Of a DNA stretch of 64,000 bases, positions 5,327 through 57,315 are shown in pieces. Every line of letters begins with the position of its first letter. Within the stretch, counting starts at the first letter, position 1. Made by a program: the position numbers and the translations under genes. This DNA comes from Ectothiorhodospiraceae bacterium BW-2 (GTDB taxonomy: Bacteria > Pseudomonadota > Gammaproteobacteria > Thiohalomonadales > Thiohalomonadaceae), in the NCBI GenBank assembly GCA_008375315.1, contig CP032507.1:2479001-2543000 (forward strand), given 5' to 3'. The notes below the pieces were generated by a model, which had not been told where the DNA came from, made no database searches, and saw nothing but the letters and a program-made list of their open reading frames with translations.

Positions 5327-5649
5327 ATTGACCCCTCCCGCATAATCTTCCTGATACTCTCCTCCGATAATTTCCTAAACTCGCCTGAACGGGCAATCTT
5401 CCCCGCAATCCATTTACCCGGTTTATTGGGATTTAACTATAGGGAGCTGACGAAGAGATGAACAGGGATGACTATACCCCTCCCCCCAACCCTCTCCCAC
5501 TGGGAGAGGGAGATTAAGGAGGGAGAGTGAACGGCTATGTACCCAGACCCACTAAAAACCCAATAGCCCCAAATTTTAGCTTGCCCCCTCCCAAGTCATT
5601 GGCTAGACTACCGCCTTATTTCCCACCACTGAAAGAGAGCTTAATCCCG
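5327..5649. other. Intergenic region upstream of locus A giant gene
   Basis: About 320 bases without a supported gene. It holds a C-rich inverted repeat around 5482-5510 (CCCTCTCCCA facing TGGGAGAGGG) of the kind often dispersed in genomes. The 30-base segment 5539-5568 is shared with the array. The frame upstream of the chosen ATG (5527-5649) is open, but its proline-rich product does not look like a protein start. Confidence 0.5.
5539..5568 (+). repeat. 30-base segment shared with the array units
   Basis: Identical over 30 bases to 18668-18697 and the equivalent place in the other ten chimeric units, where it lies 15 bases after the kinase-end relic. It marks the right edge of the putative island. 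Confidence 0.85.
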
Positions 5650-8600
5650 ATGTCAACCCTACGAGCCATCCTCTCCCTCCTACTTATCCTTAGTACATCA
5701 ACCGCCTTTAGCGGCCAGACGCTCACCCTAAATAACGGCTGGAACCTAGTCTCCCTCTACAGCGAAGCGGAGGAGGGGAGGGCGACCGTCGCCGAAACCT
5801 TCGCCATCGACGGCATCGAACGCATCTTCGCCTTTATCGACGGTCGCTGGCAATTTTACGATGCGACATCGAACACCGGTTCACTAGGGGCCGAACCCCT
5901 CACCCACCTACTCAACCGCGGCGTATGGATCAAGACCAGCCTCAGCAGTGATGCCCCCCCTATCGAACTGACCCTGACCGGCCCGAGCCACAGCCTCGAT
6001 CCCAACACCCTCAGCTCAGGCTGGAACCTCATCGGCCTAGGCAGCGGCCTCAACGACATCGACAGCTTTAACCAACAGATGGCCCTCTATCCCATCCGCC
6101 CCCAGCGCCTCTTCGCCTTTAGCAATGGTAGCTGGCAATTTCGTGACCTCACCAGCCACAGCGGTAGCCTCACCGACCTAGATCCCCACCACGGCCTCTG
6201 GCTCTACCTCAACACCGCCCTAACCCTCACCCAAAACAACCAAACCACCTCCCGCATCGACCTAGGCGACGACCTCTACGGCTACCTCTTTGCCGAAGGC
6301 ACCCCCCGCGATACCCCCCAACCCCTCACCCTACGACACAACAACACCGACTACCCACTCACCGTACCACAGGCCGACAACTACACCCTACAACTCCACG
6401 ACCCCTACGGCAGCGACTACGCCCCCCTCACCCTCAGCGGTGACACCGACCTAAGCGACCACCTCGCCCAGACCGAACGACTGCGCCCGACCCGACTCTA
6501 TGTTTACGGCCTACCCGACCAAAACAACCCCGCCACCCTACTGCAAGAGGTCGAACTCTACCAAAACGGCACCCTGCTCGGCACCCTCACCGACCCTGTG
6601 ACCGGCTTCGAACTCCCCCCCCTGAGCGCAAGCACCGAACTTACCCTCAAAAAATCGGGCTACCTCGACACCCTCCTCGAAACCACCGACCAACCGACCC
6701 TCTACGCCGTCATGCAACCGGCCACCTACCAGAGCGGCCAACTCCTCCAAAACCAACGCCTCAATGACGACTACACCGCTACCCGCCCCCTAGAGGCCAG
6801 CGCCCCCCTCGCCGTACCGAACAACGGCAACCACCAACTCGGTGCCGTCCTGCTCCACCGCAGCGGCCGCGACAACCCCAACCGCAGCCTCAGCATTCGC
6901 CTCACCCCCTACCAGAGCCAGAGCGCCATCCCCGACTTAGAACAACTCCAGAGCGCTGCCGCCCAAGACTTCCTCACCGAACAGAACCTCACCGAGCTAC
7001 CCGAACGCTGGCACTGGCAAGTGATAGCCGGCAGCCAACTCGACATCATCGACATCAGTCGCGAGACCCGACTTACCCTCAGCGAACGAAGCGCCGACTC
7101 CCTCGGTGCCTACGCCACCATCGACCCCTACCAGAGCCAACTCCTCCAGGGCGACCTCAACAACTACCGAGCCCTCCTCGAAGAGCTTCGCGATAGCCGC
7201 GACTACCCCACCTCCATCGACCTCTATGTTCGCACCGCAAGCGGCTGGCAAAAAGCGTCCGAGGGCGTCCGCATCATCGACCCCCTCACCGGTTACGATA
7301 ACCAAGAGAGCTACGCCGTCAAAGGCCAACTCCCCCTCAATCGCCCCCTCATCACCTCCGCCACCCCCGGCAGCCTCATGAGCCAACAGAACAGCGGCGG
7401 CCTCTACGACTACGCCTTTGTCCTCAAACAGAACGCCCCAATACAGCGTGATCTCACCCTCACCCTCATCGACGCACAAGGCCAACCCCTCCCCAACGCC
7501 CTCATCGCTCTCGACTGGACTCGCTGGGGGCTGACCGATACCAATGGCCAATACACCTTCACCAACCTCACCCTACCGCTCGACCGCACCGCCCTCAACT
7601 TCGAAGCGATACACACCAGCACCGCCCGCACCCCCCTCACCCTCAGCATCAACGACCTAGTCGATACCCCCGCCCCGAGCGCCACCCTAGCACTCAACGA
7701 CACCCTCAACCGCCCCCTCAACCGTCTCCTTGAGAGCCAACAACTCACCCTCACCGGCAGCATCGTTGATAGCCAAAGCGGCAGCCCCATCGTCGGAGCC
7801 AGAGTTCGCCTCCAAGCCCCCGCCGCCCTAGCCAACCTCCACTACCACCAAGGCACCTTTAGCGCCTACCAGCTCCACCAAGCCAACTACACCTGGCAGA
7901 TCCGCATCCGCCCCGGCACCACCAGCCGCCTCTTGCGCCTACTCGACAATCAGTGGCGCACCCTCAAACAGGCCAGCGGTAGCCAAAACGGCCACCGCCT
8001 CACCCAAAGCGAACTCCTGCAAGAGCTCATCATCGCCAGTGACGACCAAGACCCTAACGCCCCCTTCACCCTCGTCGGCGACTTCGACCTCAGCCTCACC
8101 GTTGAGCACGACCTCGACCAAAATGGCACCATCGACTACACCGAAACCGCCACCAACATGGGCGTCAGCATCGCCCTCAACGAAACCTACCTCACCCTAA
8201 ACGGCAGCGCCACCGCTGATGAGCGCTACCAACTAAACGGTGGCCCCGACCAAGGCTTCTTTCTCCTCAAACGACTCGATGCTAACGCCCCCGCAGCCGA
8301 CGCCCTCTGGCAACTCCGCCTCGGCGAGACCACCCTCAGCCTCAACACCCAACCGACCCCCATGATTAGCTGGAAACAGCTCCTACAACACCTCTCCGAC
8401 CCGACCACTCTCGCCAACCTCATCACCAGCGGCGCCATCGAAGGGAGCGACTTAGCCCTCACCGCCACCCTAAACGGCACCGACTACAGCCAACCCCTAC
8501 GCCTAGCCGCCCCCTACGCCGACGAACCCCTCTCCATCCTCACCCTCCAAAACGGCAGCGCCACCCCCGGCCAAGGCCTCCCCGAACGGATAGCCCGCAC

Positions 8601-8844
8601 CGACGAGCGCGGCCGCTACCAATTTAACGACATTAACCCCGCCTTTAACGGCGACAGCTTCGCCAGCCTCACCCTCGAAGCGAGCCACCCTAGCTACCAA
8701 CCCCACCCCCAACCCTCCTGCCCCCCTTTGAGAGCGCCGCCCTCAACCAGACCCTCAACCTCACCGCCATCCCGACTCGCGATGTCACCGTCAGCGTCAA
8801 CCTCAGCAACACCACCCCCGCCGCCAACGCCACCGTCCGCCTAG
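5650..8844 (+). CDS. Locus A giant secreted protein, N-terminal part (frameshifted)
   Basis: The ATG at 5650 gives a clear signal peptide (MSTLRAILSLLLILSTS, cleavage near AFSG), so the product is exported. Two similar modules follow (about residues 25-100 and 118-200), each with NGWNLV or SGWNLIG, FAFIDGRWQFYD or FAFSNGSWQFRD, and GVWIKT or GLWLYLN. The rest is beta-rich, with likely carboxypeptidase-regulatory-like folds (NALIALDWTRWGLTDTNGQY). Homology to the locus B paralogue stops at about 8720. After that the frame encodes a proline/serine-rich tail to 8844 while the true sequence continues in another frame (PFESAALNQTLNL from 8724). One missing base in the C-rich stretch 8701-8726 would explain it. 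The gene is strikingly C-rich and G-poor on the coding strand. Likely a cell-surface or released adhesin-like protein; no enzyme domain seen. Confidence 0.8.
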   Translation: MSTLRAILSLLLILSTSTAFSGQTLTLNNGWNLVSLYSEAEEGRATVAETFAIDGIERIFAFIDGRWQFYDATSNTGSLGAEPLTHLLNRGVWIKTSLSSDAPPIELTLTGPSHSLDPNTLSSGWNLIGLGSGLNDIDSFNQQMALYPIRPQRLFAFSNGSWQFRDLTSHSGSLTDLDPHHGLWLYLNTALTLTQNNQTTSRIDLGDDLYGYLFAEGTPRDTPQPLTLRHNNTDYPLTVPQADNYTLQLHDPYGSDYAPLTLSGDTDLSDHLAQTERLRPTRLYVYGLPDQNNPATLLQEVELYQNGTLLGTLTDPVTGFELPPLSASTELTLKKSGYLDTLLETTDQPTLYAVMQPATYQSGQLLQNQRLNDDYTATRPLEASAPLAVPNNGNHQLGAVLLHRSGRDNPNRSLSIRLTPYQSQSAIPDLEQLQSAAAQDFLTEQNLTELPERWHWQVIAGSQLDIIDISRETRLTLSERSADSLGAYATIDPYQSQLLQGDLNNYRALLEELRDSRDYPTSIDLYVRTASGWQKASEGVRIIDPLTGYDNQESYAVKGQLPLNRPLITSATPGSLMSQQNSGGLYDYAFVLKQNAPIQRDLTLTLIDAQGQPLPNALIALDWTRWGLTDTNGQYTFTNLTLPLDRTALNFEAIHTSTARTPLTLSINDLVDTPAPSATLALNDTLNRPLNRLLESQQLTLTGSIVDSQSGSPIVGARVRLQAPAALANLHYHQGTFSAYQLHQANYTWQIRIRPGTTSRLLRLLDNQWRTLKQASGSQNGHRLTQSELLQELIIASDDQDPNAPFTLVGDFDLSLTVEHDLDQNGTIDYTETATNMGVSIALNETYLTLNGSATADERYQLNGGPDQGFFLLKRLDANAPAADALWQLRLGETTLSLNTQPTPMISWKQLLQHLSDPTTLANLITSGAIEGSDLALTATLNGTDYSQPLRLAAPYADEPLSILTLQNGSATPGQGLPERIARTDERGRYQFNDINPAFNGDSFASLTLEASHPSYQPHPQPSCPPLRAPPSTRPSTSPPSRLAMSPSASTSATPPPPPTPPSA

Positions 8845-9056: not shown

Positions 9057-12000
9057 GTGATACAACTCACCGCCAGCGAACTCCAAGGGAGCAACATCGT
9101 CATCGAAGGGGCTATTTTCGAATATCGACTCAACAACAACCAACTCGAAGCGATACCCTACGGCCTCGCCGACAACGGTAGCCGCCTGCGCAACCAAGTG
9201 AGCCTCACCCTCAACAACCAGACCCAACCGCTCACCCTCAGCCACGACTCCACCTTTCGCCAAACCCTCACCCTCCAACAGGGGCGCAACCAAATCGCCC
9301 TCACCGCCCTCAACAGCAGTGGCACCACCACCACCCCGACCCTAGAACGAACCCTCTTCCCCCCCCAAGGGAGCTTTGCCGGCCAACTGACCTACGGCAG
9401 CGACGCCCAATTAGCCACCCACGCCAAAGTCACCCTCACCGATGCCAAAGGCGATGGCCGCATGACACGCACCGACAGCGACGGGCGCTACCAATTTAGT
9501 GGCCTCATCGCCGGCGAGAGCTACCGCCTCAGCGCCAGCTACTACGCCGATAGCATCAACTACCGCTACACCGACGAACTACTGCTAACCGCTCCGGCCA
9601 ACAGCCGCCTGACTCTCCCGACCCTCAACCTAAGCGCTGTCGAGACCACCTTTACCGGTGCCCCCCTAGTCGTCCTCAACCCACTCATCGCGCCCGATGA
9701 GAACGGCAGCCTCACCTTCAGCGGCCAAATCGCCAACTACGACGCCACCCTCGCCGGTAGCGACCGTCCGGTGACCCTGCTCATCAACGGTCAGAGCGTC
9801 GCCCAACTGACAGTCACCCTAACCGATGGCGTAGGGAGCTTCAGCGGCACCCACACCTTAACCGAAGCCGACAATCAGATCGCCATTCGTGCGACCAACC
9901 TCAACGGCCTCAGCAGCCAAACCCCGCCACAACTCAGTCGCCTCGACCTAACCCACTATGGCGCTATCGGCCTCACCATTAACGCCAGCGGCGGGATCGG
10001 GAGCCAAGGGCGGCTACAGATCTTTAACAGCGCCCAACAGCTAACCGTTGACCGCCAAATTACCCTAACTGGCGAACAGAGCGTTATCGAAATCGATAGA
10101 CTCGCCTACGATAGCTACCACTACCAACTCGCCCTAAACGGCTACCTTAACCAAAGTGGCAACTTTATCGTCAACGAACCGAGCAGAACGGTGACCGCCC
10201 AACTCACTGCCGCCGGTATTGACCTAAGCTGGATTAGCCAGAGCGTCACCCTTCGCCCCTACGCCGAAGACCCCGCACTTGCCCACCTAAGCGGTAACTA
10301 TACCCTAGAGGTACCAACCAGTCGGGTCGCCGGCCTCAACGGCGAGCTAGGTCTTAGCGCCCTTATCAGCCACAACCACAACCTAGGCACACAACAGCTC
10401 ACCCTCAGCCTGCCAACTCAACTGCCACCCCCCCTCAGTAGCAGCGACACCACCACCCGCTATCTGATTCCATTTAACTACCTGCTTGAGCTAGTTGCCG
10501 GAGAGAATCGTTTCAAACTCACCACTACCACCCGTCAGGCCAGTCAAGAGACGCTGCTCGATAGCCTCACCTACCAACCCCAAACGGTCGATCTTAACAA
10601 TCAACCACCGCTAGCCTATGCTGGGGAAGATCAAAGCGTCATCAGTGGCGACCGTTTTACCCTAACCGGCCAAGGTAGCGATAGCGACGGCAGCCTCACC
10701 GCCTACCTATGGCAACAGCTCGATGGCCCCACCCTCCCTCTAAGCGACCCCACCCTCGCCACCATTGAACTGACCGCCCCCACACTCACCGAGCGCCAAT
10801 CCGCCATTTTTGAGCTAACCGTCTTTGATAACCAAAACGGCCAAGGGAGCGATATTGTGATCGTAGAGATTGAGCCTAGACTCACCCTTGCACACCCCTT
10901 TGAACTAATCGCGCAGAGCGATGTGCGACTCAACACCGTCATCGAATCGAACCCCATCACCGTGAGCGGAATTAATGTAGCCGTTCCCCTCACCATTAGC
11001 GGCGGCGAATACCGCATCGACCAAGGCAGCTACACCACCGCCGATGGCAGCGTCACCAACGGCCAAACCGTCACCGTACGCCATACCAGCAGCAGCAGCC
11101 ACAGCAGCCAAACCGACACCATCCTCACCCTCGGCGGCATTAGCGACACCTTCACCACCACCACCCTCGACGACACCACCCCCGACGCCTTCAGCTTTAC
11201 CGACCAAACCGGCGTAGCGCTCACCACCCCAACCGAATCGAACACCCTCACCATTACCGGCCTCAACGCTGCCACCCCCATCAGCATCAGCGGTGGCGAA
11301 TACCGCATCGACAGCGGCAACTACACCACCGAAGCCGGCACTCTCAACAACAACCAAACCGTCACCCTACGCCAAACCAGCGCCTCCAGCTTTAGCACCC
11401 TCACCACCGCCACCCTCACCATCGGCGGCGTCGAAGGGAGCTTCAGCCTCACCACCCTAGCGGCCATCACCGCCCCCGAGGCCTTTAGCTTTAACGACCA
11501 ACAAAATGTCGCCCTCAACAGCGTCATCGAATCGAACCCCATCACCGTCAACGGCATCAACACCGTCTCAACCCTCACCATCAGCGGCGGCGAATACCGC
11601 ATCGACCAAGGCAACTACACCACCGCCGATGGCAGCGTCACCAACGGCCAAACCGTCACCGTACGCCATACCAGCAGCAGCAGCCACAGCAGCCAAACCG
11701 ACACCATCCTCACCATCGGCGGCATTAGCGACACCTTCACCACCACCACCCTCGACGACACCGTTCCCGACGCCTTCAGCTTTATTGCCCAAACCGGCGT
11801 GGCGCTCACCACCCCAACCGAATCGAACACCCTCACCATTACCGGCCTCAACGCTGCCACCCCCATCAGCATCAGCGGTGGCGAATACCGCATCGACAGC
11901 GGCAACTACACCACCGAAGCCGGCACTCTCAACAACAACCAAACCGTCACCCTACGCCAAACCAGCGCCTCCAGCTTTAGCACCCTCACCACCGCCACCC

Positions 12001-14216
12001 TCACCATCGGCGGCGTCGAAGGGAGCTTCAGCCTCACCACCCTAGCGGCCATCACCGCCCCCGAGGCCTTTAGCTTTAACGACCAACAAAATGTCGCCCT
12101 CAACAGCGTCATCGAATCGAACCCCATCACCGTCAACGGCATCAACACCGTCTCAACCCTCACCATCAGCGGCGGCGAATACCGCATCGACCAAGGCAAC
12201 TACACCACCGCCGATGGCAGCGTCACCAACGGCCAAACCGTCACCGTACGCCATACCAGCAGCAGCAGCCACAGCAGCCAAACCGACACCATCCTCACCA
12301 TCGGCGGCATTAGCGACACCTTCACCACCACCACCCTCGACGACACCACCCCCGACGCCTTCAGCTTTACCGACCAAACCGGCGTAGCACTCAGTACGCT
12401 CATCGAGTCGAACACTATCACCGTAGCAGGCATTAACGCCGCCACAGCCATTAGTATCAGCGGTGGGGAGTACAAAATAGACGCCGGCAGCTACACCAGC
12501 ACAGCAGGCACCGTACTGAATGGCCAGACGGTAACGGTGCGCCATACCAGCTCGGCCAGCCACAGCAGCCAAACCGACACCATCCTCACCCTCGGCGGCA
12601 TTAGCGACACCTTCACCACCACCACTCTCGACGACACCACCCCCGACGCCTTCAGCTTTACCGACCAAACCGGCGTAGCGCTCAGTACGCTCATCGAGTC
12701 GAACACTATCACCGTAGCAGGCATTAACGCCGCCACAGCCATTAGTATCAGCGGTGGGGAGTACAAAATAGACGCCGGCAGCTACACCAGCACAGCAGGC
12801 ACCGTACTGAATGGCCAGACGGTAACGGTGCGCCATACCAGCTCGGCCAGCCACAGCAGCCAAACCGACACCATCCTCACCCTCGGCGGCATTAGCGACA
12901 CCTTCACCACCACCACTCTCGACGACACCACCCCCGACGCCTTCAGCTTTACCGACCAAACCGGCGTAGCGCTCAGTACGCTCATCGAGTCGAACACTAT
13001 CACCGTAGCAGGCATTAACGCCGCCACAGCCATTAGTATCAGCGGTGGGGAGTACAAAATAGACGCCGGCAGCTACACCAGCACAGCAGGCACCGTACTG
13101 AATGGCCAGACGGTAACGGTGCGCCATACCAGCTCGGCCAGCCACAGCAGCCAAACCGACACCATCCTCACCCTCGGCGGCATTAGCGACACCTTCACCA
13201 CCACCACCACCCTCGACGACACCACCCCCGACGCCTTCAGTTTTATTGCTCAAACAGGGGTGCCTCGCGCCACAGTCACAGAGTCTAACGCCATTACCGT
13301 ATCGGGTCTTAGTGTTGGGGCAGAGATTAGCGTCATAGGAGGGGAGTACCAAATCGATGGTGGCGGATATAGCGCCATAACCGGTACGGTACAAAACGGC
13401 CAGACGGTACAGCTTCGTCATACCAGCTCGGCCGATTATGCCACCCTAACAACAACCACACTCACCATAGGTGGGGTAGAGGCTAGCTTCTCCACTACTA
13501 CGGAGGCTGAACCTGCTCAACCCGCCACCCGCCCCCTCAACGACACCGGCCTGCTTTGGGGCGGGAACTACCCTAGCGGCAATAACGGTACCTGTATTGG
13601 TGAGACTATTGAGCAACAGGACTGCTCCCACGGTCGCGATGCGCAGGCATTAGCCGGCACCCTGACTAAAGTGGGGGGAGGCCATGGGGGCTTTGACTTC
13701 ACCAAACTGGGTGCTAACGGCGAGCCGCTGGCGATACAAACGGGTGCCTATGATGCTATTAGCGGCAGCGAAGCGGCGGGCACGCTCTGGCGTTGCGTTA
13801 AAGATAATCTCACCGGCCTAATATGGGAGGTCAAAACCGATGATGGCGGGATTCATGATAAAGATAACACCTACCGTTGGGGTGGGGTGACGGCGCTGCT
13901 TAATGGTGATTTTGGTACCCGTTATAACGATTGGGATACGCTGGTTAACGGTAGTAACAGCGAAGCGCTCTGCGGCTTTAGTGACTGGCGGGTGCCTTCG
14001 ATTCGTGAGCTAGAGTCGATTCGCAATCTTAATCGTGCTAATCCTGCGATTGATACTGCCTACTTTCCTAATACGCTGGGCTCGTTTGTCTGGTCGGCTT
14101 CGGCCAATGCCAACTATAGTGACGATGCCTGGGTTGTCTATTTCTACTATGGCAACTCCTACAACGACAACCGTACCAACTCTTACGGTGTGCGGCTGGT
14201 TCGTAGCGGACAGTGA
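9057..14216 (+). CDS. Locus A giant protein, C-terminal part; DGR target VP1
   Basis: The frame is open and homologous from about 8724; the GTG at 9057 is only the first convenient start, so this is the continuation of the 5650 gene (about 2,850 residues joined). Domains in order: a carboxypeptidase-regulatory-like module (VTLTDAKGDGRMTRTDSDG), a PKD-like domain (NNQPPLAYAGEDQSV to SDIVIVEIEP, about 518-605), nine repeats of about 97 residues (about 606-1482) and a DUF1566/Lcl domain (about 1490-1719) beginning RPLNDTGLLWGGNYPSGNN. DUF1566 domains belong to the C-type-lectin-like folds used as DGR variable proteins. The last 45 residues (SFVWSASANANYSDDAW to LVRSGQ) are variable repeat VR1. 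Avd, TR and RT follow directly. Export depends on the signal peptide of the upstream part, so the frameshift matters for function. Confidence 0.82.
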   Translation: MIQLTASELQGSNIVIEGAIFEYRLNNNQLEAIPYGLADNGSRLRNQVSLTLNNQTQPLTLSHDSTFRQTLTLQQGRNQIALTALNSSGTTTTPTLERTLFPPQGSFAGQLTYGSDAQLATHAKVTLTDAKGDGRMTRTDSDGRYQFSGLIAGESYRLSASYYADSINYRYTDELLLTAPANSRLTLPTLNLSAVETTFTGAPLVVLNPLIAPDENGSLTFSGQIANYDATLAGSDRPVTLLINGQSVAQLTVTLTDGVGSFSGTHTLTEADNQIAIRATNLNGLSSQTPPQLSRLDLTHYGAIGLTINASGGIGSQGRLQIFNSAQQLTVDRQITLTGEQSVIEIDRLAYDSYHYQLALNGYLNQSGNFIVNEPSRTVTAQLTAAGIDLSWISQSVTLRPYAEDPALAHLSGNYTLEVPTSRVAGLNGELGLSALISHNHNLGTQQLTLSLPTQLPPPLSSSDTTTRYLIPFNYLLELVAGENRFKLTTTTRQASQETLLDSLTYQPQTVDLNNQPPLAYAGEDQSVISGDRFTLTGQGSDSDGSLTAYLWQQLDGPTLPLSDPTLATIELTAPTLTERQSAIFELTVFDNQNGQGSDIVIVEIEPRLTLAHPFELIAQSDVRLNTVIESNPITVSGINVAVPLTISGGEYRIDQGSYTTADGSVTNGQTVTVRHTSSSSHSSQTDTILTLGGISDTFTTTTLDDTTPDAFSFTDQTGVALTTPTESNTLTITGLNAATPISISGGEYRIDSGNYTTEAGTLNNNQTVTLRQTSASSFSTLTTATLTIGGVEGSFSLTTLAAITAPEAFSFNDQQNVALNSVIESNPITVNGINTVSTLTISGGEYRIDQGNYTTADGSVTNGQTVTVRHTSSSSHSSQTDTILTIGGISDTFTTTTLDDTVPDAFSFIAQTGVALTTPTESNTLTITGLNAATPISISGGEYRIDSGNYTTEAGTLNNNQTVTLRQTSASSFSTLTTATLTIGGVEGSFSLTTLAAITAPEAFSFNDQQNVALNSVIESNPITVNGINTVSTLTISGGEYRIDQGNYTTADGSVTNGQTVTVRHTSSSSHSSQTDTILTIGGISDTFTTTTLDDTTPDAFSFTDQTGVALSTLIESNTITVAGINAATAISISGGEYKIDAGSYTSTAGTVLNGQTVTVRHTSSASHSSQTDTILTLGGISDTFTTTTLDDTTPDAFSFTDQTGVALSTLIESNTITVAGINAATAISISGGEYKIDAGSYTSTAGTVLNGQTVTVRHTSSASHSSQTDTILTLGGISDTFTTTTLDDTTPDAFSFTDQTGVALSTLIESNTITVAGINAATAISISGGEYKIDAGSYTSTAGTVLNGQTVTVRHTSSASHSSQTDTILTLGGISDTFTTTTTLDDTTPDAFSFIAQTGVPRATVTESNAITVSGLSVGAEISVIGGEYQIDGGGYSAITGTVQNGQTVQLRHTSSADYATLTTTTLTIGGVEASFSTTTEAEPAQPATRPLNDTGLLWGGNYPSGNNGTCIGETIEQQDCSHGRDAQALAGTLTKVGGGHGGFDFTKLGANGEPLAIQTGAYDAISGSEAAGTLWRCVKDNLTGLIWEVKTDDGGIHDKDNTYRWGGVTALLNGDFGTRYNDWDTLVNGSNSEALCGFSDWRVPSIRELESIRNLNRANPAIDTAYFPNTLGSFVWSASANANYSDDAWVVYFYYGNSYNDNRTNSYGVRLVRSGQ
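10875..13500 (+). repeat. Nine tandem 97-residue beta repeats within VP1
   Basis: Period 291 or 294 bases. Each repeat has an ESNxITVxGI segment, an ISGGEYxID segment, a GQTVTVRHTSS segment and an LTxGGxSDTFTTTTLDD segment. Repeats 2-3 recur almost identically as repeats 4-5 (period 585), and repeats 6, 7 and 8 are nearly identical to each other, while repeats 1 and 9 are diverged. The pattern indicates recent duplication. Ig-like stalk or spacer modules are likely. Confidence 0.88.
14079..14216 (+). repeat. Variable repeat VR1 (3' end of VP1)
   Basis: Aligns with the TR without gaps. TR AAT/AAC codons have become TTT, TAT, GAT, GTT, TAT, TAC, TAT, TAC and GAC: 11 changes, all at TR adenines. 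The only other difference is TR G14890 versus C14211, in the codon before the stop. It encodes the end of the DUF1566 domain. Confidence 0.95.
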
Positions 14217-14244
14217 TTTTGATTTTTTTATTTTTATTTTTATT

Positions 14245-14619
14245 ATGAGTCATAACCTACCTATTTGGCGTGATACGCAACGGCTGTTAGTACGGATTGA
14301 GGAGGTGGTGCGCCACTTCCCCCGCTACCATAAATATGCCCTCGGCAGCGATATGCGCCGTCAAGCGATGCGACTAATGCAGTTGCTAATGCGAGCGCTA
14401 CAAGCACAAAACTCGGAGCGAATTGAGCAGGTCAAAGAGCTACAGCTAGCGATAGGGGAGATGAAGGTAATGATTCAGACAGCCAAAGAGCTACAAGCGT
14501 TTCAACATTTTGCCCAATTTGAAGAGCTATCGCTATTGGCTGTCACAATAGGACGACAGAGCGGTGGTTGGTTAAACAAGCTCTCTAGCAGAGCACAGCC
14601 AGAACAGGGAGGGGGCTAA
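14245..14619 (+). CDS. avd: Avd-like DGR accessory protein
   Basis: 124 residues from the ATG at 14245. Mostly alpha-helical, with the signature region HFPRYHKYALGSDMRRQAM typical of the Avd/S23-like four-helix-bundle family. In characterised DGRs a pentameric Avd binds the reverse transcriptase and TR RNA and is required for template-primed cDNA synthesis. It lies 28 bases after the VP1 stop and directly before the TR, the standard order. No Shine-Dalgarno is visible, since the spacer is nearly pure T, so translation may rely on coupling to VP1 or on an A/U-rich leader. The basic C-terminal part (KLSSRAQPEQGGG) is probably flexible. Confidence 0.88.
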   Translation: MSHNLPIWRDTQRLLVRIEEVVRHFPRYHKYALGSDMRRQAMRLMQLLMRALQAQNSERIEQVKELQLAIGEMKVMIQTAKELQAFQHFAQFEELSLLAVTIGRQSGGWLNKLSSRAQPEQGGG

Positions 14620-14624
14620 CTTTG

Positions 14625-14798
14625 ATGGCCTCTCATCTCTGGCGTGCTGAGTTCACTGTGCGCCGCTGGAGCCGGTTCGATAACTATCGACGGCATCAAC
14701 AGGGTGCCCCTCTCTACCCCTCGGGATGGGACGGGCGCGAGCAATACCAGCGGCTAAGGCTCGAATGTCTGGTCGGCTTCGGCCAATGCCAACAATAG
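14625..14798 (+). CDS. 57-residue ORF between avd and TR, unknown
   Basis: ATG at 14625, five bases after the avd stop, GAGGGGG a little upstream; ends at a TAG inside the TR. The protein starts MASHLWRAEFTVRRWSRFDN and is rich in Arg, Trp and Tyr, which looks protein-like up to the TR edge. It may be a remnant of a longer gene cut by the TR, or part of the non-coding TR transcript. I recognise no family. Confidence 0.3.
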   Translation: MASHLWRAEFTVRRWSRFDNYRRHQQGAPLYPSGWDGREQYQRLRLECLVGFGQCQQ

Positions 14799-14895
14799 TG
14801 ACAATGCCTGGAATGTCAATTTCAACAATGGCAACTCCAACAACAACAACCGTACCAACTCTTACGGTGTGCGGCTGGTTCGTAGCGGAGAGTGA
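14758..14895 (+). ncRNA. DGR template repeat (TR) and template RNA
   Basis: 138 bases matching VR1 and VR2. It is rich in AAT and AAC codons in the VR frame, the usual TR design that lets adenine mutagenesis reach many residues without creating stop codons. It ends with the IMH* version of the 3' segment (TAGCGGAGAGTGAT), against TAGCGGACAGTGAT in both VRs. The functional RNA probably extends into avd on one side and RT on the other. The VR reading frame has no start here, so it is a template rather than a gene. Confidence 0.93.
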
Positions 14896-14902
14896 TACTC
14901 GG

Positions 14903-16360
14903 GTGGCGTTTGACTACAGCTCACTCTACCATGCGTGGTTAGCGTGTCGGCGCCGGAAACGGCGCTCACCCCAAGCACAGCGTTATGAGGTCTATCTGTT
15001 AGATAACCTCGCAACGGCAGTGCAAGCTCTGCAACGAGGCACTTGGAGACCTAGCCGCTCTGTCGTTTTTGTTACCACTCACCCCAAAGCAAGGGAGATT
15101 CACGCCGCCCCCTACGCCGACCGAGTGATACACCACTGGCTGGTTCCACGGCTAGAGCGGCTATATGAGCCGATATTGATTGACGACCTCTACTCCAATC
15201 GGCGCAACAAAGGGAGCCATACCGCCGTTGTCAGACTGCAACACTTCATGCGTAGCGTCAATAACCAAGCACAACCAGCAGCAGGCGGCGGCTACTACCT
15301 GCAGCTCGATATTCGCAACTTTTTTCATAGCATCGATAAAGTGAGACTATTCCAACTGTTGCAACACCGTCTTGCGCGGTCAGTGAAAGCCAAACTCTTA
15401 ACCGTCGTAGAGGCAGAGCGTCTTCGCGACCTGTCGCACCACATCCTCAAACCCCATGTCGGCCGCGAAGCGCGTTGGGTCGGCCCCCCTCAGGCGCGTT
15501 ACCAAGTGCCAGCGCATAAACGGCTAGAGTCTGTCGCCGAAGGTAAGGGCCTGCCGATTGGCAATCTCACTAGCCAGTTCTTTGCTAATGTCTATCTCAA
15601 CGAGCTAGACCAATTTATCAAACATCAACTCAAATGCCGTCACTACATCAGATATGTCGATGACTTTATTCTGCTCCACCCTGACAGAGGGCAACTACAG
15701 CAGTGGCAACACGCCATCAGCGACTTTTTGGCTAAACGGCTGCAGTTACAACTAAAAGCGTCGCCACCGCTTCGGCCGATTCATAACGGTGCCGACTTTT
15801 TAGGCTATATCGTTCGCCCCCACTACCTACTCGTGCGGCGACGAGTTATTGGCCATTTACGACAAAAACTCTACCGCTGGCAGCAACAGAATCTACTAAA
15901 CAGCCCCCAAAGCGGCCAACGACTACGACTCTCGCCCCCCCAGCGCGAATCGTTACGAGCGCTGCTAGCGAGCTACTTAGGCCACTTTCGCCACGCATCG
16001 AGCCACCGCTTAATCGCCTCCCTATTTGAACAGCGCTACCGCTGGCTCTCGCTGCTATTTTATTATCGGGAGGGACGCCTAACCCCCCTTTGGCAACCAC
16101 AACAGGTGAGCAGCTATCGTAGCCAAGTGCGCTACTTCCGGCGCACCTACCCCTATAGCGAACTCACTATCCAACGAGGCAGCGAGTTTGACCACTTTCA
16201 GCCCCTAGTCACTGCCCCTAGTCTGTCGCGCTCACCCTTTACGATGGTGCGCCATATTCATGTCATTGAGTCAGGCTATCTTCGCGGCGGGCTAAAACGA
16301 CGCCAAATCCACTTTATCGACACTCACCTAGGAGTAAATCTATGTTCCCTGCAACCGTAA
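14903..16360 (+). CDS. DGR reverse transcriptase
   Basis: About 485 residues from a GTG at 14903, the first plausible start after the TR; the frame is also open back to 14726 through the TR, but that part is template. RT motifs: DRVIHHWLVPRL (74-84), LQLDIRNFFHSID with catalytic Asp136, GLPIGNLTSQFFANVYLNEL (216-235) with the SQ in place of the SP of other RTs, a DGR hallmark, and YVDD (251-254) with the catalytic Asp pair. It would copy TR RNA with A-specific infidelity together with Avd. The roughly 200 residues after the palm are basic and longer than the thumb of compact DGR RTs, with repeated RYRW/YFRR patches. The last 19 bases overlap the VP2 start, so RT and VP2 are translationally linked. 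Confidence 0.93.
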   Translation: MAFDYSSLYHAWLACRRRKRRSPQAQRYEVYLLDNLATAVQALQRGTWRPSRSVVFVTTHPKAREIHAAPYADRVIHHWLVPRLERLYEPILIDDLYSNRRNKGSHTAVVRLQHFMRSVNNQAQPAAGGGYYLQLDIRNFFHSIDKVRLFQLLQHRLARSVKAKLLTVVEAERLRDLSHHILKPHVGREARWVGPPQARYQVPAHKRLESVAEGKGLPIGNLTSQFFANVYLNELDQFIKHQLKCRHYIRYVDDFILLHPDRGQLQQWQHAISDFLAKRLQLQLKASPPLRPIHNGADFLGYIVRPHYLLVRRRVIGHLRQKLYRWQQQNLLNSPQSGQRLRLSPPQRESLRALLASYLGHFRHASSHRLIASLFEQRYRWLSLLFYYREGRLTPLWQPQQVSSYRSQVRYFRRTYPYSELTIQRGSEFDHFQPLVTAPSLSRSPFTMVRHIHVIESGYLRGGLKRRQIHFIDTHLGVNLCSLQP

Positions 16361-16863
16361 TCATAGCCCTGCTAATGCTACTGCCCCTCTCGCTACAGGC
16401 GGTGACCTGCAATAACTCAGCCCTCCCACCTTCGACCCCCGATAGCCAATTTACCGTTCATGGCGATGGTACCGTCACCGATACCGTCACCGGCTTGATG
16501 TGGAAGCAGTGTGTTGAGGGGCTCAGTGGCGGCGACTGCTCGACCGGCAGTGCGCAAACCTTCACTTGGCAAGGTGCGCTGCAACGCCCAGCGTCGCTCA
16601 ATGTGGGGGGTGGCTTTGCCGGTTATACCGATTGGCGTCTGCCTAATCTAAACGAGTTGCTGTCATTGGTGGAAACTTGTCGCAACTCTCCGGCCATTAA
16701 TAATGTGGTATTTCCTAATACGCCTAGCTCGTATGTCTGGTCGGCTTCGGCCAATGCCAACGTTAGTGACTTTGCCTGGCGTGTCTATTTCAACAATGGC
16801 AACTCCAACAACAACTTCCGTCCCTACTCTTACGGTGTGCGGCTGGTTCGTAGCGGACAGTGA
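16342..16863 (+). CDS. Small secreted DUF1566 protein, DGR target VP2
   Basis: 173 residues; the ATG at 16342 follows TAGGAGTAAATCT and gives a signal peptide (MFPATVIIALLMLLPLSLQA). A single DUF1566 domain fills the rest: DGDGTVTDTVTGLMWKQC, FAGYTDWRLPNLNELLSL, FPNTPSSYVWSASA and the closing YGVRLVRSGQ. The final 46 residues are variable repeat VR2. The start lies inside the RT end. It resembles the DUF1566 tail of VP1 and the small gene at 57375. Probably exported to the periplasm, surface or medium, where the diversified face can contact ligands. Confidence 0.9.
   Translation: MFPATVIIALLMLLPLSLQAVTCNNSALPPSTPDSQFTVHGDGTVTDTVTGLMWKQCVEGLSGGDCSTGSAQTFTWQGALQRPASLNVGGGFAGYTDWRLPNLNELLSLVETCRNSPAINNVVFPNTPSSYVWSASANANVSDFAWRVYFNNGNSNNNFRPYSYGVRLVRSGQ
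16726..16863 (+). repeat. Variable repeat VR2 (3' end of VP2)
   Basis: Gap-free match to the TR. TR codons become TAT, GTT, TTT, CGT, TAT, TTC, CCC and TAC: 12 changes, every one at a TR adenine. The first base of the block (A16726 against G14758) and the IMH base (C16858 against G14890) also differ. The mutated codon set overlaps that of VR1 only partly, so the two VRs were diversified independently. Confidence 0.95.
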
Positions 16864-17068
16864 TTTTGATTTTTTATTTTTTATCCTTTGCTACTGCTGT
16901 GGCGATGGGGGTATGGTTGGGCGGTTTTTCTCGTCTCCTTGCTCATGCCTATACTGAAAAGAGCGCTACTAACCTCTCGCCCCTCTTTGGCCTCATTGAG
17001 TAGGGGCGAGTTTCAAACCCGCCCTGACACGCCGTTAGTTACCGAAAATCGTTTGGGCATTAGAAATA
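16864..17068. other. Intergenic region between DGR and array
   Basis: Begins with a T-rich run like that after VR1. Around 17003-17060 it has a diverged version of the palindromic block found upstream of every Rpn gene (GGGGCGAGTTT facing AAACCCGCCC, then the ACGCCGTTAGTTACC segment). No gene supported. Confidence 0.6.
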
Positions 17069-50776: not shown

Positions 50777-52927
50777 GTGGTCGAGTTGAATATCGCGTTA
50801 GATGCTATTCCGGCACGGGATGTGATCGTGACTGTCGAGCTTGGTACATCTGGTGTCGCTGAGGGGGCAACGGTCTATTTAGGAGATCTGCAGCAGGTGA
50901 CTGATGCCAATGGCCAAGCCACCTTTAGTGCGGTACCTGAGGGCTCCTATCCTCTGTCGATAGTTGCCGCTACTAGCGGTTATGAACTAGAGGGCGATAA
51001 CACTATTGTTGTAGCGCAAGAGTTTGATAGCGAAGGTAATCTTCTCTCAACCCCTCAGTCTGAAACCATATCGTTGGTTGCGGTGGAGTGGGTTTCGCCG
51101 TTGCCGCCGGTAATTGATGCGACGATTAGTAGTGTTGACAGTAGTGGCACCGTGGTAGTTGAAGGAAGCGTTATAGAGTATCGTTTAGAGAATAACCAAA
51201 TCTACCCGACTGCGTATGGTATTGCCGATGATGGTGAGAGGATGCGCCAGGCCGTTACTATTATTGTGAATGGCGAAGCAACGCCGCTAGTCCTGGATCA
51301 AGACTCCGTTTTTCGTACCACAGTTAATCTGCGAGAGGGGCGCAACCACCTCAATCTAACTGCTCGTAATAGTGTTGGCGTAGCTAGCAGCCAGCCGGCT
51401 ATGCGTGTCTATTTTCCCGATTTTGGGAGTGTGACCGGCGTGTTGAGCTATACTCCGGATGGCGGTAGTAGTCAGGCGGCCGCTAATGCTAGGGTGACCT
51501 TAATGGATGGTCGCGGTCAGGGACGGGTGACCCGAGCCGATGCCGAGGGGAATTTCCGCTTTACTGCGCTGCAGGCGGGTCAGAGCTACCGCTTAGGGGC
51601 TTTGTTAGAGAGCGATGGGGTACGCTATACGCTTTCGGCTGACGCGAGCAACACCTTGACCGCGCCATCAGGCAGTCGGCTCGACTTAGGCACCAAAGCA
51701 CTGGTTGAACAGGCACTGCAGCAGACTATTAATGGCGCACCGATTGTGCAGATTAATCCACCGGTTTTGACCGGAAGTGTGGTCACGGTGACAGGGCGCC
51801 TTGGTAACTTTAATGGCAGTGCGGAACTGATTGTTAATCGTGAGCCGGTTGAGACCTTAACCTTAACCCAAAATGGCACCTTGTGGGATTTTAGTACCAC
51901 TGTGACTCTAATCGAACCGCAAAATGGTATCACCGTTCGGGCGACTAACCTGAATGGGCAATCCAATCTGGCACCGCCGCGTCTGATAACACTCAATACG
52001 ATTGAATATGGTAGCGTCGGTTTAACCATTGAGTCACCGGCCGGTATCGGTACCGAGGGGCGGCTGCAGGTGATGAATGCCGAAAACCGAATTGTGATAG
52101 ACCGACCGACGATTTTGACCGGAACCACGACGACTATTACCTTAAATAATCTCCCCTTTGGCAGCTATAGCTATCAGCTATTTATGCCCGGTTTTGTGGG
52201 GCAATTAAACAACTTTGTGGTCGATGAGGCGAGTGAATCGGCCTCAGTCACACTCTCTTCAACTGGCATTGATCTCTCTTGGATCTCCTTTAATAGTGTC
52301 GTGGCGGAGCCTCAAAGTGAAGGTTCAACCTTGGCAAAGATGAGCGGTAACTTAGTGCTAACGGTACCTCAGAGCCGAGTGGAGAGTTTGGGTAATCAGC
52401 TACCGCTAGCGATGCAGCTAATGCACGGTAGTCGCGAGGGTGTGCTATCACAGCCGGTTGGCTTACCGGCAGAGCTGCCTGATGCCGATACCATCACTAC
52501 TGTAGCAGATCAGACTATCTATACCTTTTCGTGGACAGCCTATCGCGAGATGGAGCCGGGGGTTAACCGCTTTTCACTGCGGGTTTCGACCCAGAGGGGG
52601 GAGTTTAACTACCCGAACAGGCCATTTGAGTTGGCACTAGTTGAAGATTTGAACCAGACTAACACACCACCTGTGGCCGATGCCGGTAGTGATCAGACTG
52701 TCTCTGCCGGGGTCGCGGTGACCTTAGAGGGCAGCGCCAGTAGTGATACCGAGTCGCCCGCTTTAGCCTATCACTGGATGCAGCTTGATGGTCCGCCTAC
52801 CCGTCTGACGAATCCGACTAGCGCGACACCGACCTTTATGGCACCGAGCCTGCTCAATGGTGCCGAACTCACTTTTGAGTTGACTGTATTTGATGCTCAA
52901 GGGGGCAGAGTCGTGATCGGGTGGTGA
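50777..52927 (+). pseudogene. Locus B giant gene, piece 3
   Basis: 716 residues from a GTG; homology starts earlier, at about 50590. Contains a carboxypeptidase-regulatory-like module (ARVTLMDGRGQGRVTRADAEG) and the PKD-like domain (TPPVADAGSDQTVSAG to LTFELTVFDAQG), as in locus A. It breaks at the five-G run 52901-52905; the continuing frame reads GQSRDRVVITVEA, like GQGSDIVIVEIE in locus A. Confidence 0.8.
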
Positions 52928-55900
52928 TTACCGTGGAAGCGGGCGGCGGCTTCCCGCAGCCGGTTACCGGTGGTGGGCAGTTAACAACATATTTTAATGT
53001 ACAAACCGGCAGTCATGATAATTTTGCTCTTGATTTTGATCGCATTGATTTTTTTGAAAATCATCTCGTAATATCGCGCTTGATAGCTCAGGGAGAGATA
53101 GAGTCATTACCCTACCAAATTAACGGCAATATTCTGAAAATAGGCTCAAGTGAGGAGTTTTGGGAGTATGAGCTGATTGAGAGCAATACCGACTATCTGC
53201 TGCTGCGTTTAAAAGGTGATATTAATAATCCTACTATGCGCTGGTACTCTAACGAAGCCGTAGCACGCGACTGGTTTAATGCGAACCGCGTTGTGCCGCC
53301 AAGCACTCCGATAGTGATCAATGGTAGCCTTGATGATTGGGCTAATGTTGACGATGTTGGTAACCGTGGGACTCGCTCCTCCATCATTAGCATAACTAAT
53401 ATTCGTTATGCTCAGGACATTGATAATCTCTATGTGTTAGTCGAAGCGAGTAGTGATATCAGCGCTTTTGTTTCGACTAGCAGTCAAGAGGGGCAACACC
53501 GGTTTCAGTTTAGTTTAAAGGCGCTTGAGTTTACTATATTAGGCGATCCGACTACTGCGACTTTAGTTAACACGAATAATAACAGCCAATTAGATACGCT
53601 ATCGGTTGCTAATGGTGACTATTCGATAAATGGCAACATACTGGAGTTGCGTTTACCAAAATCATATCTTGCTAGTAGTATCATTAATGCAAACCTCATC
53701 TCTGAATCAGCGAGTTTTGCGGCTGTGAATAGTGACAATAGATATTACTATTCAATTTCGCAACGCCCTTCGCTATTACTTGATCCCGAAGCGCAGCAGA
53801 ATCCTCTCTTTACGACTACCGAACAGGCGTTGTCAGGAGTTTGGTGGGCCAGTGTGGTTGATGATGGCGTTTTGGCTAATGGAGCTGTAGATAACCATGC
53901 TGAAGAGTTAAATCAATGGCTCCATCTAGCGATGCAGGGAGGTGGTAGCTACTACTATTCACTCTTTACTGATTCGGGTGAAGTGTTGGATGTCGGTTAT
54001 GATAGAGAGATAGTGATTGATGATACAGAACAAACCTTGACGGTTACCGAAAGTGATAGTCAGAATCGGTCAATCATAGATTTTGACCCTGTTACTGGAA
54101 CGGCACTTATCTCTCGACAACAGTTAGCTACTGATGGTTTAAGCTATTTTGTCACCGATACCACTAACTTAGTCCGCACCCGTCCGCTTCCGGCCACTCC
54201 GCTAGCTGATCTCAATGGTGAGGTGCTCTACTTTGTCGGTATTGATCAAACCGGACAGTTTGCGACCGGTTACCCGATTAAACAGCTCTTTAGTGCCGGT
54301 AATATGGTCGGTGGCGAGTTAGTCGGAGAGGTGGTGACGGCACAAAAACTGGCTACTCTTATTGACCAGCCGAATGAGTATCACCGTTATCGGGTCGAGG
54401 GCAATCAACTGATTCTCTTTAGTGATTCCCACACCCAGGAAAATCTGCGCCTGACTCTTGAGACCAATGGTACTGGTGAGCTGCAATTTATCACCACCGG
54501 TGGTGCGCAGTTTTATGCCTATCGCAGTGACGGTGAAGCGCAAAACCGCTGGGCTAGCAGCCAGCGCTATCCAGTTGCTAATGCAGCAATGAGTGTTGAT
54601 GGGGTGAATAGTGACTGGGCGGATATTATCGGCGTTGCGACTTCTACAGAGAGCCAGCCACTCTCTGCGGCGATACATATTAACGATATTAAAGTCGCCA
54701 GCGATGGGACTAACCTCTACGTCAATATTGAAGCCGATCGCGAGATTAGCCCGTTCCTGAGTGCTACCAGTGCTGAAGGGTGGGATCATGAACTGCTGTT
54801 TGGTTTTGGCGGTTGGGATTTTGAGATTTGGAGTCGTGATGGACTCACTGCGCGTAGTGATAACCCCTTCGATCCTGATGGCAGTTCGGTTGATATTACC
54901 AACTACGGTGGTCAATTGGTGGTAAACGGCGCTACTGCTGAGCTGAAAGTACCGCTTGATCTACTACCGCAGTTTAATAACACTATCGGGATGCAGCTAC
55001 AGTTTAAGGCGGTGCAGCCACAAATTGATGGCGGTAATGACTATAGCTATAGCGGTGGTGGTCTGTTACTAGATGCCAATTCGATTATCCGGCCCGAACT
55101 ACAGACCCCGCGCCTGCTGTCACGCATCTGGTGGACCACTCACAATGATGACGGTACTCGTCAGGATGGGTCTGTTGACGATACAACGGGTGAAGAGCCG
55201 GGTGGCGAGACGCTGGTAGGTAATCCTGATGGTAGCTGGACTATAAGTAACGGCGATGGGGTCTATAACTTCACCGCTGACAGAGTTACCCTTCTCGATA
55301 GCCTTAATACCGTGATCTTAAATGAGAGGGATGGTCAGGGCCGGGTGGTCTATCGGGTTAACCCGGAGGGAACTCAGCTTTTCGGCCAATGGCAGAAAAT
55401 GGCACCCGATGGCAGTTGGTGGGCCGACTATGAGACTTGGAACGGTCAAATGATGGCACCGCTGCCCGATAGTGCGCCTGAGGCGGTTTATGGCCAATAT
55501 AATAGTGGCGGGGCGCTGCTTAACTGTCTGGAACTGCGCGGTGAGCAGACGCTGATCTACCCACCTACCAGTCGAAATATCCCAACCGATGTGCGCAATC
55601 GCTCAATTCAGACCTCGCTGTCGCTCGCAGCGGTGCAACCGGTGACGAATAGTGTGTTGACCCTGCATCAATTGACGCAGGAGCCGGATGGTTCACACTA
55701 TATGTTACGCTCTCAGGGCACGACGCCACTGGGGTTAGCCTATCGTAAACGGGTCAATAGCTGTACTCAGGCACCGGCAACGATCACGCCGCCGGCAATG
55801 GGTCACGCCTACTACCGTATGAGCGGCCAAAATGGGGTGCTAGAGAGTTGTGCGGTGATTGACCCATCTAGCGGCCGTTTTACCCTCTATCGTGACAACA

Positions 55901-57315
55901 CAACGACAGAACCTAACCTCTCCGGTCAGCTTTTTGTTCAGGTCGATGCGTTGCGCTTAGTGGCGGATGATGGTCAAACTGAGTTCAATATTCACCGTAC
56001 CTCACCTCTCTTTGATGATGGCAGTTATATCGTGCGAATGGATCAATCGGCTGACTACTACCACCGTCTGCAGAGCGTTAGTTGTGACTACGATACCCTG
56101 CCGCCTACTATGACAGTCATGCCTTCGGGAGCTGTATCGGGTGAGTTTGTGTTAGATAACACAGAGTCGGTCTATATCCCGTTTGATGATTATGAGCTGA
56201 TATCGGGCAGTGTCACTTTTGTGGATGAGTTAGGTAACCCGATAGCGGTGCCGACCGATGCTAAAGTGCGCTTTGTGCCTAACCGCTATATTGCCATTAA
56301 TGACTATAACTACAGTATCGATTGTGCGGTGCGGAGTGATGGCTCTTTTGGTAATGGTGGCTGTTATGCCTACTCCAACCGCTTTAACGGGCTCTACCTC
56401 TCATTGGCATATGATGTTGCTGAAACTTGGCAAGTGGTGCTCTATAAAGATCACCTACAGGATATTTCGGGCTGGAACTGTGGTGAAGATGCTTACCTTT
56501 ATATGGGTGATAATATCGAAAATACGATCTTTGAGCCCTTTACTGTAGCGCCGACAGACTATCAGGATCGCTCTGGCGATGTGTGTGATAGTGGCTCAAG
56601 TGGTGGTGAGACGACCACACCGCTATTTCGTCCGCTAAACGATACCGGCTTGGTATGGGGCGGTAACTACCCCGAAGGTAATAACACGACCTGTATTGGT
56701 GAAACGATTGAGCAGCAGGATTGTGCTCATGGTCGCGATGCAGAGGCGCTGGCCGGTACGCTAACTAAAATGGGTGCTGGTCATGCTGGTTTTGATTACA
56801 CCAAGCTGGGCGCTAATGGTCAGCGATTAGCGATACAGGATGGGGTCTATGATGCTTTAAATGGCAGCGAGGCGGCCGGAACAAAGTGGAGCTGTGTGCA
56901 GGATAATGTCACCGGTTTGATATGGGAAGTTAAAACCGATGATGGTGGGATTCACGATAAGGACAATACTTACCGTTGGGGTGGGGTGACGGCGCTGCTG
57001 ACTGGTGAGTTTGGTACCCGCTATAGCGACTGGGATGAGCTGGTTATTGGTAGTAACAATGAGATGCTGTGCGGTTTTAGTGACTGGCGGGTGCCTTCGG
57101 TGCATGAGTTGACTTCGTTGGTGAACAGTCATCAAAGCAATCTAGCTATTGACACCAACTTTTTTCCTAATAGTGGCTCTAGCCTATTTTGGTCGGGCTC
57201 GCCTCGTGCAAATCTCTCCAGCTATGGGTGGGCCGTGAATTTCAACTATGGTAATGTTGGCGATGTCGGTCGTCTTAGTCCTTACGGCGTGCGACTGGTT
57301 CGTAGTAGAGAATAA
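52921..57315 (+). CDS. Locus B giant protein, piece 4 with DUF1566 end
   Basis: 1,464 residues from a GTG at 52921 that overlaps the end of piece 3. In place of the nine 97-residue repeats of locus A it carries two DOMON/CBM9-like segments (NGSLDDWANVDDVG at about 130, VDGVNSDWADIIG at about 555), each followed by a conserved LLDPEAQQNP or LLDANSIIRPE and WWASVVDDG or WWTTHNDDG block. The C-terminal DUF1566 domain (about 1236-1464) is closely related to that of VP1 (RPLNDTGLVWGGNYPEGNN; HDKDNTYRWGGVTALL). Its last residues (NFNYGNVGDVGRLSPYGVRL) vary at positions diversified in locus A, but the DNA differs from the TR at many non-A sites. No signal peptide in this piece; it depends on the upstream pieces. 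Confidence 0.82.
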   Translation: MVITVEAGGGFPQPVTGGGQLTTYFNVQTGSHDNFALDFDRIDFFENHLVISRLIAQGEIESLPYQINGNILKIGSSEEFWEYELIESNTDYLLLRLKGDINNPTMRWYSNEAVARDWFNANRVVPPSTPIVINGSLDDWANVDDVGNRGTRSSIISITNIRYAQDIDNLYVLVEASSDISAFVSTSSQEGQHRFQFSLKALEFTILGDPTTATLVNTNNNSQLDTLSVANGDYSINGNILELRLPKSYLASSIINANLISESASFAAVNSDNRYYYSISQRPSLLLDPEAQQNPLFTTTEQALSGVWWASVVDDGVLANGAVDNHAEELNQWLHLAMQGGGSYYYSLFTDSGEVLDVGYDREIVIDDTEQTLTVTESDSQNRSIIDFDPVTGTALISRQQLATDGLSYFVTDTTNLVRTRPLPATPLADLNGEVLYFVGIDQTGQFATGYPIKQLFSAGNMVGGELVGEVVTAQKLATLIDQPNEYHRYRVEGNQLILFSDSHTQENLRLTLETNGTGELQFITTGGAQFYAYRSDGEAQNRWASSQRYPVANAAMSVDGVNSDWADIIGVATSTESQPLSAAIHINDIKVASDGTNLYVNIEADREISPFLSATSAEGWDHELLFGFGGWDFEIWSRDGLTARSDNPFDPDGSSVDITNYGGQLVVNGATAELKVPLDLLPQFNNTIGMQLQFKAVQPQIDGGNDYSYSGGGLLLDANSIIRPELQTPRLLSRIWWTTHNDDGTRQDGSVDDTTGEEPGGETLVGNPDGSWTISNGDGVYNFTADRVTLLDSLNTVILNERDGQGRVVYRVNPEGTQLFGQWQKMAPDGSWWADYETWNGQMMAPLPDSAPEAVYGQYNSGGALLNCLELRGEQTLIYPPTSRNIPTDVRNRSIQTSLSLAAVQPVTNSVLTLHQLTQEPDGSHYMLRSQGTTPLGLAYRKRVNSCTQAPATITPPAMGHAYYRMSGQNGVLESCAVIDPSSGRFTLYRDNTTTEPNLSGQLFVQVDALRLVADDGQTEFNIHRTSPLFDDGSYIVRMDQSADYYHRLQSVSCDYDTLPPTMTVMPSGAVSGEFVLDNTESVYIPFDDYELISGSVTFVDELGNPIAVPTDAKVRFVPNRYIAINDYNYSIDCAVRSDGSFGNGGCYAYSNRFNGLYLSLAYDVAETWQVVLYKDHLQDISGWNCGEDAYLYMGDNIENTIFEPFTVAPTDYQDRSGDVCDSGSSGGETTTPLFRPLNDTGLVWGGNYPEGNNTTCIGETIEQQDCAHGRDAEALAGTLTKMGAGHAGFDYTKLGANGQRLAIQDGVYDALNGSEAAGTKWSCVQDNVTGLIWEVKTDDGGIHDKDNTYRWGGVTALLTGEFGTRYSDWDELVIGSNNEMLCGFSDWRVPSVHELTSLVNSHQSNLAIDTNFFPNSGSSLFWSGSPRANLSSYGWAVNFNYGNVGDVGRLSPYGVRLVRSRE

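Follow-up and report, generated by a model that had tools for sequence, protein, structure and literature searches.

A complete diversity-generating retroelement with Lcl_C/DUF1566 targets and adenine-restricted variable repeats, some of them distant, in Ectothiorhodospiraceae bacterium BW-2

In the diversity-generating retroelement (DGR) of Bordetella phage BPP-1 (mtd-avd-TR-brt), the target site is a GC-rich hairpin/cruciform just downstream of the variable repeat (VR) (PMC3240598), and the structured, ∼140-nt spacer (Sp) between the template repeat (TR) and the reverse transcriptase (RT) gene recruits the RT–Avd complex and primes cDNA (PMC12875486). DGR targets contain Lcl_C/DUF1566 more often than any other Pfam domain, and C-type lectin (CLec) folds are reported for it, according to a paper on such elements in Stenotrophomonas, Vibrio and other Proteobacteria (PMC6642488). 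Targets distant from the TR are known in other systems (PMC4891356, PMC7517822, PMC10907252), and overlap of TR and RT gene is already known from the literature (PMC3521204). Here we analyze a 64,000-nt stretch (the window) of the genome of Ectothiorhodospiraceae bacterium BW-2 (GCA_008375315.1, contig CP032507.1, positions 2,479,001 to 2,543,000), which carries a DGR with Lcl_C/DUF1566 targets. Because such targets are the commonest among DGRs, the element is of an ordinary, known type. We put at roughly 0.95 the probability that the locus is a complete DGR of the Lcl_C/DUF1566-target lineage, including the cycle and the targets in trans proposed below.

The locus has the order VR1–Avd–TR–RT–VR2, with all features on the plus strand. 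The TR (14758–14895) is 138 nt long, contains 38 adenines, and aligns without gaps to both VRs. VR1 (14079–14216) differs from it at 12 positions, 11 of them TR adenines and the other G14890, which is C in VR1 (14211). VR2 (16726–16863) shows 14 mismatches: 12 at TR adenines, the same G-to-C change (at 16858), and the left-edge base 14758. TR adenines thus account for 23/26 mismatches, a concentration with a chance probability of 2.0e-6 for VR1 and 2.7e-6 for VR2. The preliminary description, read by eye from the sequence, had counted 23 substitutions on TR adenines and named the G/C difference near the end and one left-edge base as the sole other differences; the computed alignment reproduces that count base for base. 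By codon position in the VR frame, 18 TR adenines fall at position 1, 18 at position 2 and two at position 3, and 15 codons are AAY. As AAY makes up most of the variable codons of the TR, an Asn position can turn into many residues with no stop arising.

The window belongs to a 4.07-Mb single-contig genome (positions on it are given as C1) that holds four DGRs with 11 assigned VRs. These were found with TR, Lcl_C, RVT_1 and bAvd queries, followed by a scan of matched regions for adenine-restricted repeats; VRs of unlike sequence could be missed by such sequence and family searches. Pooled over the four DGRs, changes were seen at 161/390 TR adenines, 0/396 C, 6/326 G (five of them G to C) and 1/271 T (Fisher p ∼1e-90). 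The non-A total of 7/993 is the opposite of what the preliminary description had named as counter-evidence, namely substitutions at C, G or T as frequent as at A. Seven non-VR Lcl_C paralogues from the same genome, used as a negative control, show differences from the TRs at every one of the four bases. The pattern had also been called direct evidence of mutagenic retrohoming; this is fair for past activity and does not extend to current activity.

The avd accessory gene (14245–14619) encodes a 124-aa protein of the bAvd family. It matches Pfam bAvd with an E-value of 9.2e-14 (52.3 bits, cut-off 40) and the NCBIfam Avd model with 3.3e-12 (46.6 bits, under the curated cut-off of 80). The RT gene (14903–16360) encodes 485 aa from a GTG at 14903, with an RVT_1 match (E 2e-15) and a YVDD motif. 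Its [ILV]GxxxSQ-type motif is present as IGNLTSQ and is missing from three RTs of this genome that are not DGR RTs. Searched by sequence, the PDB gives the BPP-1 DGR RT, 8ub7 (E 7e-33), as the top match, followed by LtrA (7e-10). Structure comparisons agree: Foldseek with an AlphaFold2 model of the RT (pLDDT 88) ranks 8ub7 first, as does VIA-align (Z 28.4, root-mean-square deviation 2.4 over 310 residues, 29% identity), with group II intron RTs at Z ∼21. In a tree, the sister sequence is the RT of Candidatus Venteria, inside a group from loci that mostly have adenine-restricted TR/VR pairs, although deep branches are weak; such pairs occur at 41/43 of the loci nearest by RT. The RT therefore groups with DGR RTs, not outside their clade. 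The earlier view of a complete DGR, with a TR and with Avd and an SQ-motif RT located between VR1 and VR2, is borne out.

A C-terminal extension takes the RT beyond the length of the BPP-1 RT; PDB matches mostly cover residues 1–394 and barely reach the extension. Where the RT begins is not certain. The best candidate is GTG 14903, and the frame stays open back through the TR. A start inside the TR was considered and rejected: many loci keep this frame open across the TR, but, by reading rather than computation, its register against the VR frame seems not to be the same in the window as in Xanthomonad loci. A small open reading frame (ORF) from 14625, between avd and the TR, was likewise set aside, as related loci gave no convincing homologues.

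Compared with BPP-1, the locus shares the VR–avd–TR–RT order, the adenine-restricted differences, Avd, the RT fold, and non-A differences between TR and VR at the 3′ end. It differs in that the TR abuts the RT gene, the RT is longer with its C-terminal extension, a T-rich bipartite motif and no GC hairpin follows the VR, a second VR lies downstream, and further VRs lie far away. The DUF1566-target DGRs of Stenotrophomonas, Vibrio and other Proteobacteria (PMC6642488) have the same target domain and multiple VRs per TR, whereas here the RTs span 485–520 aa (versus ∼400) and VRs lie megabases from the TR; neither the discriminator nor the motif treated below is described in the passages of that paper that were consulted. 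Thiohalocapsa PB-PSB1 (PMC10907252) resembles our genome in having several DGRs, proposed trans targets and loci shaped by insertion sequences (IS); FGE-type targets also occur in DGR3 and DGR4 of our genome, in DGR4 together with a caspase domain. Yet the loci of PB-PSB1 number nine, with RTs of clade 5 and conflict-system targets, and here there are four complete cassettes, of which two belong to the Lcl_C lineage. In the Treponema denticola DGR and the cyanobacterial remote variable proteins (PMC4891356, PMC7517822), one TR likewise pairs with several scattered target genes. For T. denticola, the TR has A at 38/56 varied alignment columns, which is looser than in the window DGR, a comparison made on alignments.

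The same organization recurs across the lineage. Among 39 related genome loci, the RT is preceded by the TR, in most cases immediately, and VRs lie upstream, downstream or on both sides. Avd homologues are present in 35 of these loci, nearly all immediately 5′ of the TR. Changes affect 1051/2123 TR adenines, compared with 4/2322 C, 12/1950 G and 7/1377 T. Related Stenotrophomonas and Xanthomonas loci (L092–L106) match the window DGR in anatomy, discriminator and downstream motif. Among viral contigs, 39/43 have this anatomy, with changes at 901/1510 A and 3/5159 C, G and T combined.

A discriminator near the 3′ end, C in the VR and G, A or T in the TR, is present in 64/70 genome pairs and in 44/44 scored viral pairs, 19/63 viral pairs being unscored as they did not match the initiation of mutagenic homing (IMH) pattern used. 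Judged from these alignments, the window G/C difference at 14890 (G in the TR, C in all four VRs of the window DGR, DGR1) is this lineage-wide, conserved discriminator, reminiscent of the IMH*/IMH difference. A need for a Shine–Dalgarno sequence does not fully account for it: the TR end GGAGAG precedes the RT start, but GGAAAG or GGATAG stands there in several relatives, so this cannot be the sole reason for the non-A difference between TR and VR.

Downstream of the discriminator, VRs of the lineage carry a bipartite TTTG-n-TTTG motif in near-fixed register. In the window, the VR-specific C and the T-rich stretch that follows form candidate target-site elements at 14211–14235 (VR1, with a TTTTG motif that has no counterpart downstream of the TR) and 16858–16882 (VR2); the window VRs have a long T run in place of a clean second TTTG. 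A fixed pattern, picked by eye on this first set of loci, which are kin by descent, matched 42/71 VRs versus 5.8 after shuffling. With one VR per locus, the mean was 23.5/38 versus 3.2. The hairpin is another matter: stems of at least 7 bp occurred after 3/71 VRs (1.2 shuffled) and 0/44 viral VRs, with the BPP-1 control giving 8 bp.

The T-rich motif could instead reflect base composition, a terminator remnant or a co-duplicated flank. T-rich DNA is frequent at gene ends, where many VRs lie, and paralogous VRs have flanks in common; the descent of the loci and the choice of the pattern by eye also leave room for this explanation. But the motif keeps the same register after stop codons (33/56 VRs, shuffled 5.1) and in VRs with no stop right after CAG, most of which read on (9/15, shuffled 0.9). 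It was found in only 2/71 flanks taken 30 nt further on and in 0/36 TR flanks. The viral set, scored with the pattern already fixed, gave 18/44 versus 1.6, with flank and TR controls at 0. Other DGR lineages show the reverse, with little motif (3/38 versus 1.7) and an excess of hairpins (7/38 versus 0.5). We therefore regard an origin unrelated to target sites as doubtful, though it keeps a real share of the probability.

The literature searched, which covered few subscription papers, gave no description of a T-rich motif after the VR. The combination of a VR-specific C with TTTG-n-TTTG in place of the BPP-1 hairpin looks new, and it may function in target recognition. We would give even odds to a broader proposal, that Lcl_C/DUF1566 DGRs recognize targets unlike BPP-1, through the VR-specific C and the fixed-register motif, in or outside reading frames, with one TR reaching VRs chromosome-wide and with neither a hairpin/cruciform nor a separate priming spacer. 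By eye, five loci of other lineages (L118, L123, L131, L133 and L140) show CTG about every 8–9 nt just past the VR; YTG steps in the Lcl_C lineage are likewise spaced 7–9 nt apart.

The DGR1 TR also matches two further VRs, ∼1–2 Mb away on the same chromosome. VR3 (C1:366.3 kb), carried by an 821-aa PEGA–Lcl_C protein, has 18 A changes and equals the TR at every non-A site except the discriminator and one edge base. VR4 (C1:3520.6 kb) belongs to a paralogue of target gene 2, and its flanks on either side are similar as well. These two genes differ at 74/238 sites upstream of the VR (31%), 1/94 non-A sites within the VR and 18/36 A sites. This contrast recurs in a paralogue pair of DGR2 (96/580, 1/84 and 17/37, respectively), and the DGR2 TR matches two VRs within one 1804-aa gene (C1:2812131–2817545; VRs at C1:2812–2813 kb). 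Drifted flanks beside a near-invariant VR backbone are explained by continued overwriting from the TR, not by duplication alone. Being so far from the TR, the distant VRs would have to be reached in trans, and these sequence comparisons indicate that the VR4 copy was probably rewritten in this way. Very probably, one TR serves its two neighboring VRs and at least two others ∼1–2 Mb away. As a separate observation, the VR4 gene (L046:6569–6940) appears 5′-truncated beside IS-end-like sequence, and its VR keeps the adenine rule.

In the proposed cycle, the RT–Avd complex would reverse transcribe TR RNA and misincorporate opposite adenines, and the cDNA would take the place of the VR within the 3′ portion of Lcl_C genes. 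The TR-to-VR direction would probably depend on the discriminator base (C in VRs; G, A or T in TRs), together with TTTG-n-TTTG past the VR. Several points weigh against this account. A BPP-1-type GC hairpin is missing after the VR (longest stems 5, 2, 3 and 2 bp for the four DGR1 VRs), as is a BPP-1-like TR–RT spacer, with ∼8 nt to the likely RT start versus 144 nt in BPP-1. Details of priming and targeting must therefore differ from BPP-1. The Sp may overlap the RT gene, but a priming spacer hidden in the RT 5′ end found no favor in relatives, which show neither a synonymous-constraint peak nor a conserved fold there. The CLec fold of the target domain is unconfirmed, its predicted model reaching a pLDDT of only 39, and there is an apparent frameshift upstream in target gene 1.

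All VRs, moreover, come from one genome, which cannot show ongoing activity, and the DGR might be formerly active and now dead, its VRs frozen products. VR2 of DGR2 without its 3′ end beside an IS, the 5′ truncation of the VR4 gene, and degenerate DGR pieces near C1:993–1002 kb are in keeping with decay. However, long-frozen VRs would have drifted at non-A sites too, and the paralogous VRs are near-identical there (1/94 and 1/84 differing, versus 17–31% just upstream). RT, Avd and TR are also intact, and we consider a dead element unlikely. It is quite improbable, too, that the distant VRs are recent duplicates of local target genes with no rewriting in trans. VR4 does sit in a clear paralogue with similar flanks, yet its upstream sequence has diverged by 31% against 1% of VR non-A sites; the DGR2 paralogues repeat the contrast, and VR3 matches the TR from within a protein of different architecture. 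Finally, the idea of ordinary Lcl_C paralogues shaped by point mutation and gene conversion, with codon bias in variable, Asn-rich loops mimicking adenine restriction, draws on the ∼19 Lcl_C domains of the genome but is refuted by the base spectrum, by the non-VR paralogues, which unlike the VRs differ from the TRs at C, G and T in addition to A, and by a TR placed between avd and a DGR RT, and its probability is negligible.

Both local targets of the complete DGR end in Lcl_C domains, and a surface-binding role for them may be suggested. Target gene 1 (9057–14216) is a 1719-aa ORF encoding a long, repeat-rich surface-type protein, with Lcl_C/DUF1566 at its C-terminal end (residues 1580–1716, Pfam E 9.4e-29). 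About eight tandem 291/294-bp repeats, some nearly identical, occupy 10929–13245. Its coding frame probably extends further upstream: across a C-rich stretch (8697–8740), a 1105-aa ORF (5527–8844) and the VR1-gene frame look like one frameshift-broken protein, the cause of which may be a pseudogene, phase variation or an assembly error. Target gene 2 (16342–16863) encodes 173 aa with an N-terminal hydrophobic stretch and Lcl_C (Pfam E 3.2e-35). In the distant 1804-aa gene, the DGR2 VRs lie in N-terminal tandem Lcl_C domains, not at the 3′ end, and matches to PKD, TSP3, Ig-like and Peptidase_C13 follow.

DGR1, the window locus, thus has Lcl_C targets and four VRs, two local and two distant. DGR2 (C1:3.982–3.986 Mb; TR ∼C1:3984449–3984569, minus strand) also has Lcl_C targets, two local VRs, and an RT 51% identical to that of DGR1; one local VR (C1:3982396–3982486) has lost its 3′ end beside IS-end sequence. 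DGR3 (C1:867–869 kb) has FGE-sulfatase-type targets and a TR downstream of the RT, with one VR (C1:867067–867196) on the opposite strand. DGR4 (C1:996–998 kb) has an FGE-sulfatase-type target with the caspase domain, and degenerate RT and Avd pieces lie nearby (C1:993140, C1:1001613). Elsewhere in the window, a second Lcl_C gene cluster (52921–60309) includes a paralogue of target gene 1 and has no TR or adenine-restricted match; its genes are possibly former DGR targets. A long run of similar ORFs of ∼320–360 aa with internal repeats of 21-bp units, interspersed with transposase genes, fills 17241–47380; the first three are near-identical, and the single member tested is PDDEXK_2. A 1307-aa RT at L048:2354–6277 appears to resemble defence RTs, with a C-terminal part that is nitrilase-like by reading.

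Distant VRs served in trans have so far mostly been inferred from repeats alone. Flank drift set against constancy of the VR backbone, in a genome that is a single contig and has four separate TR/VR sets, offers a quantitative signature of such rewriting. The four-DGR genome, this signature and the candidate target motif add interest to an otherwise known DGR type. Should the motif after the VRs prove to be how this common lineage marks its targets, it would be an alternative to the BPP-1 hairpin in target recognition, and distant DGR targets would become predictable from sequence.

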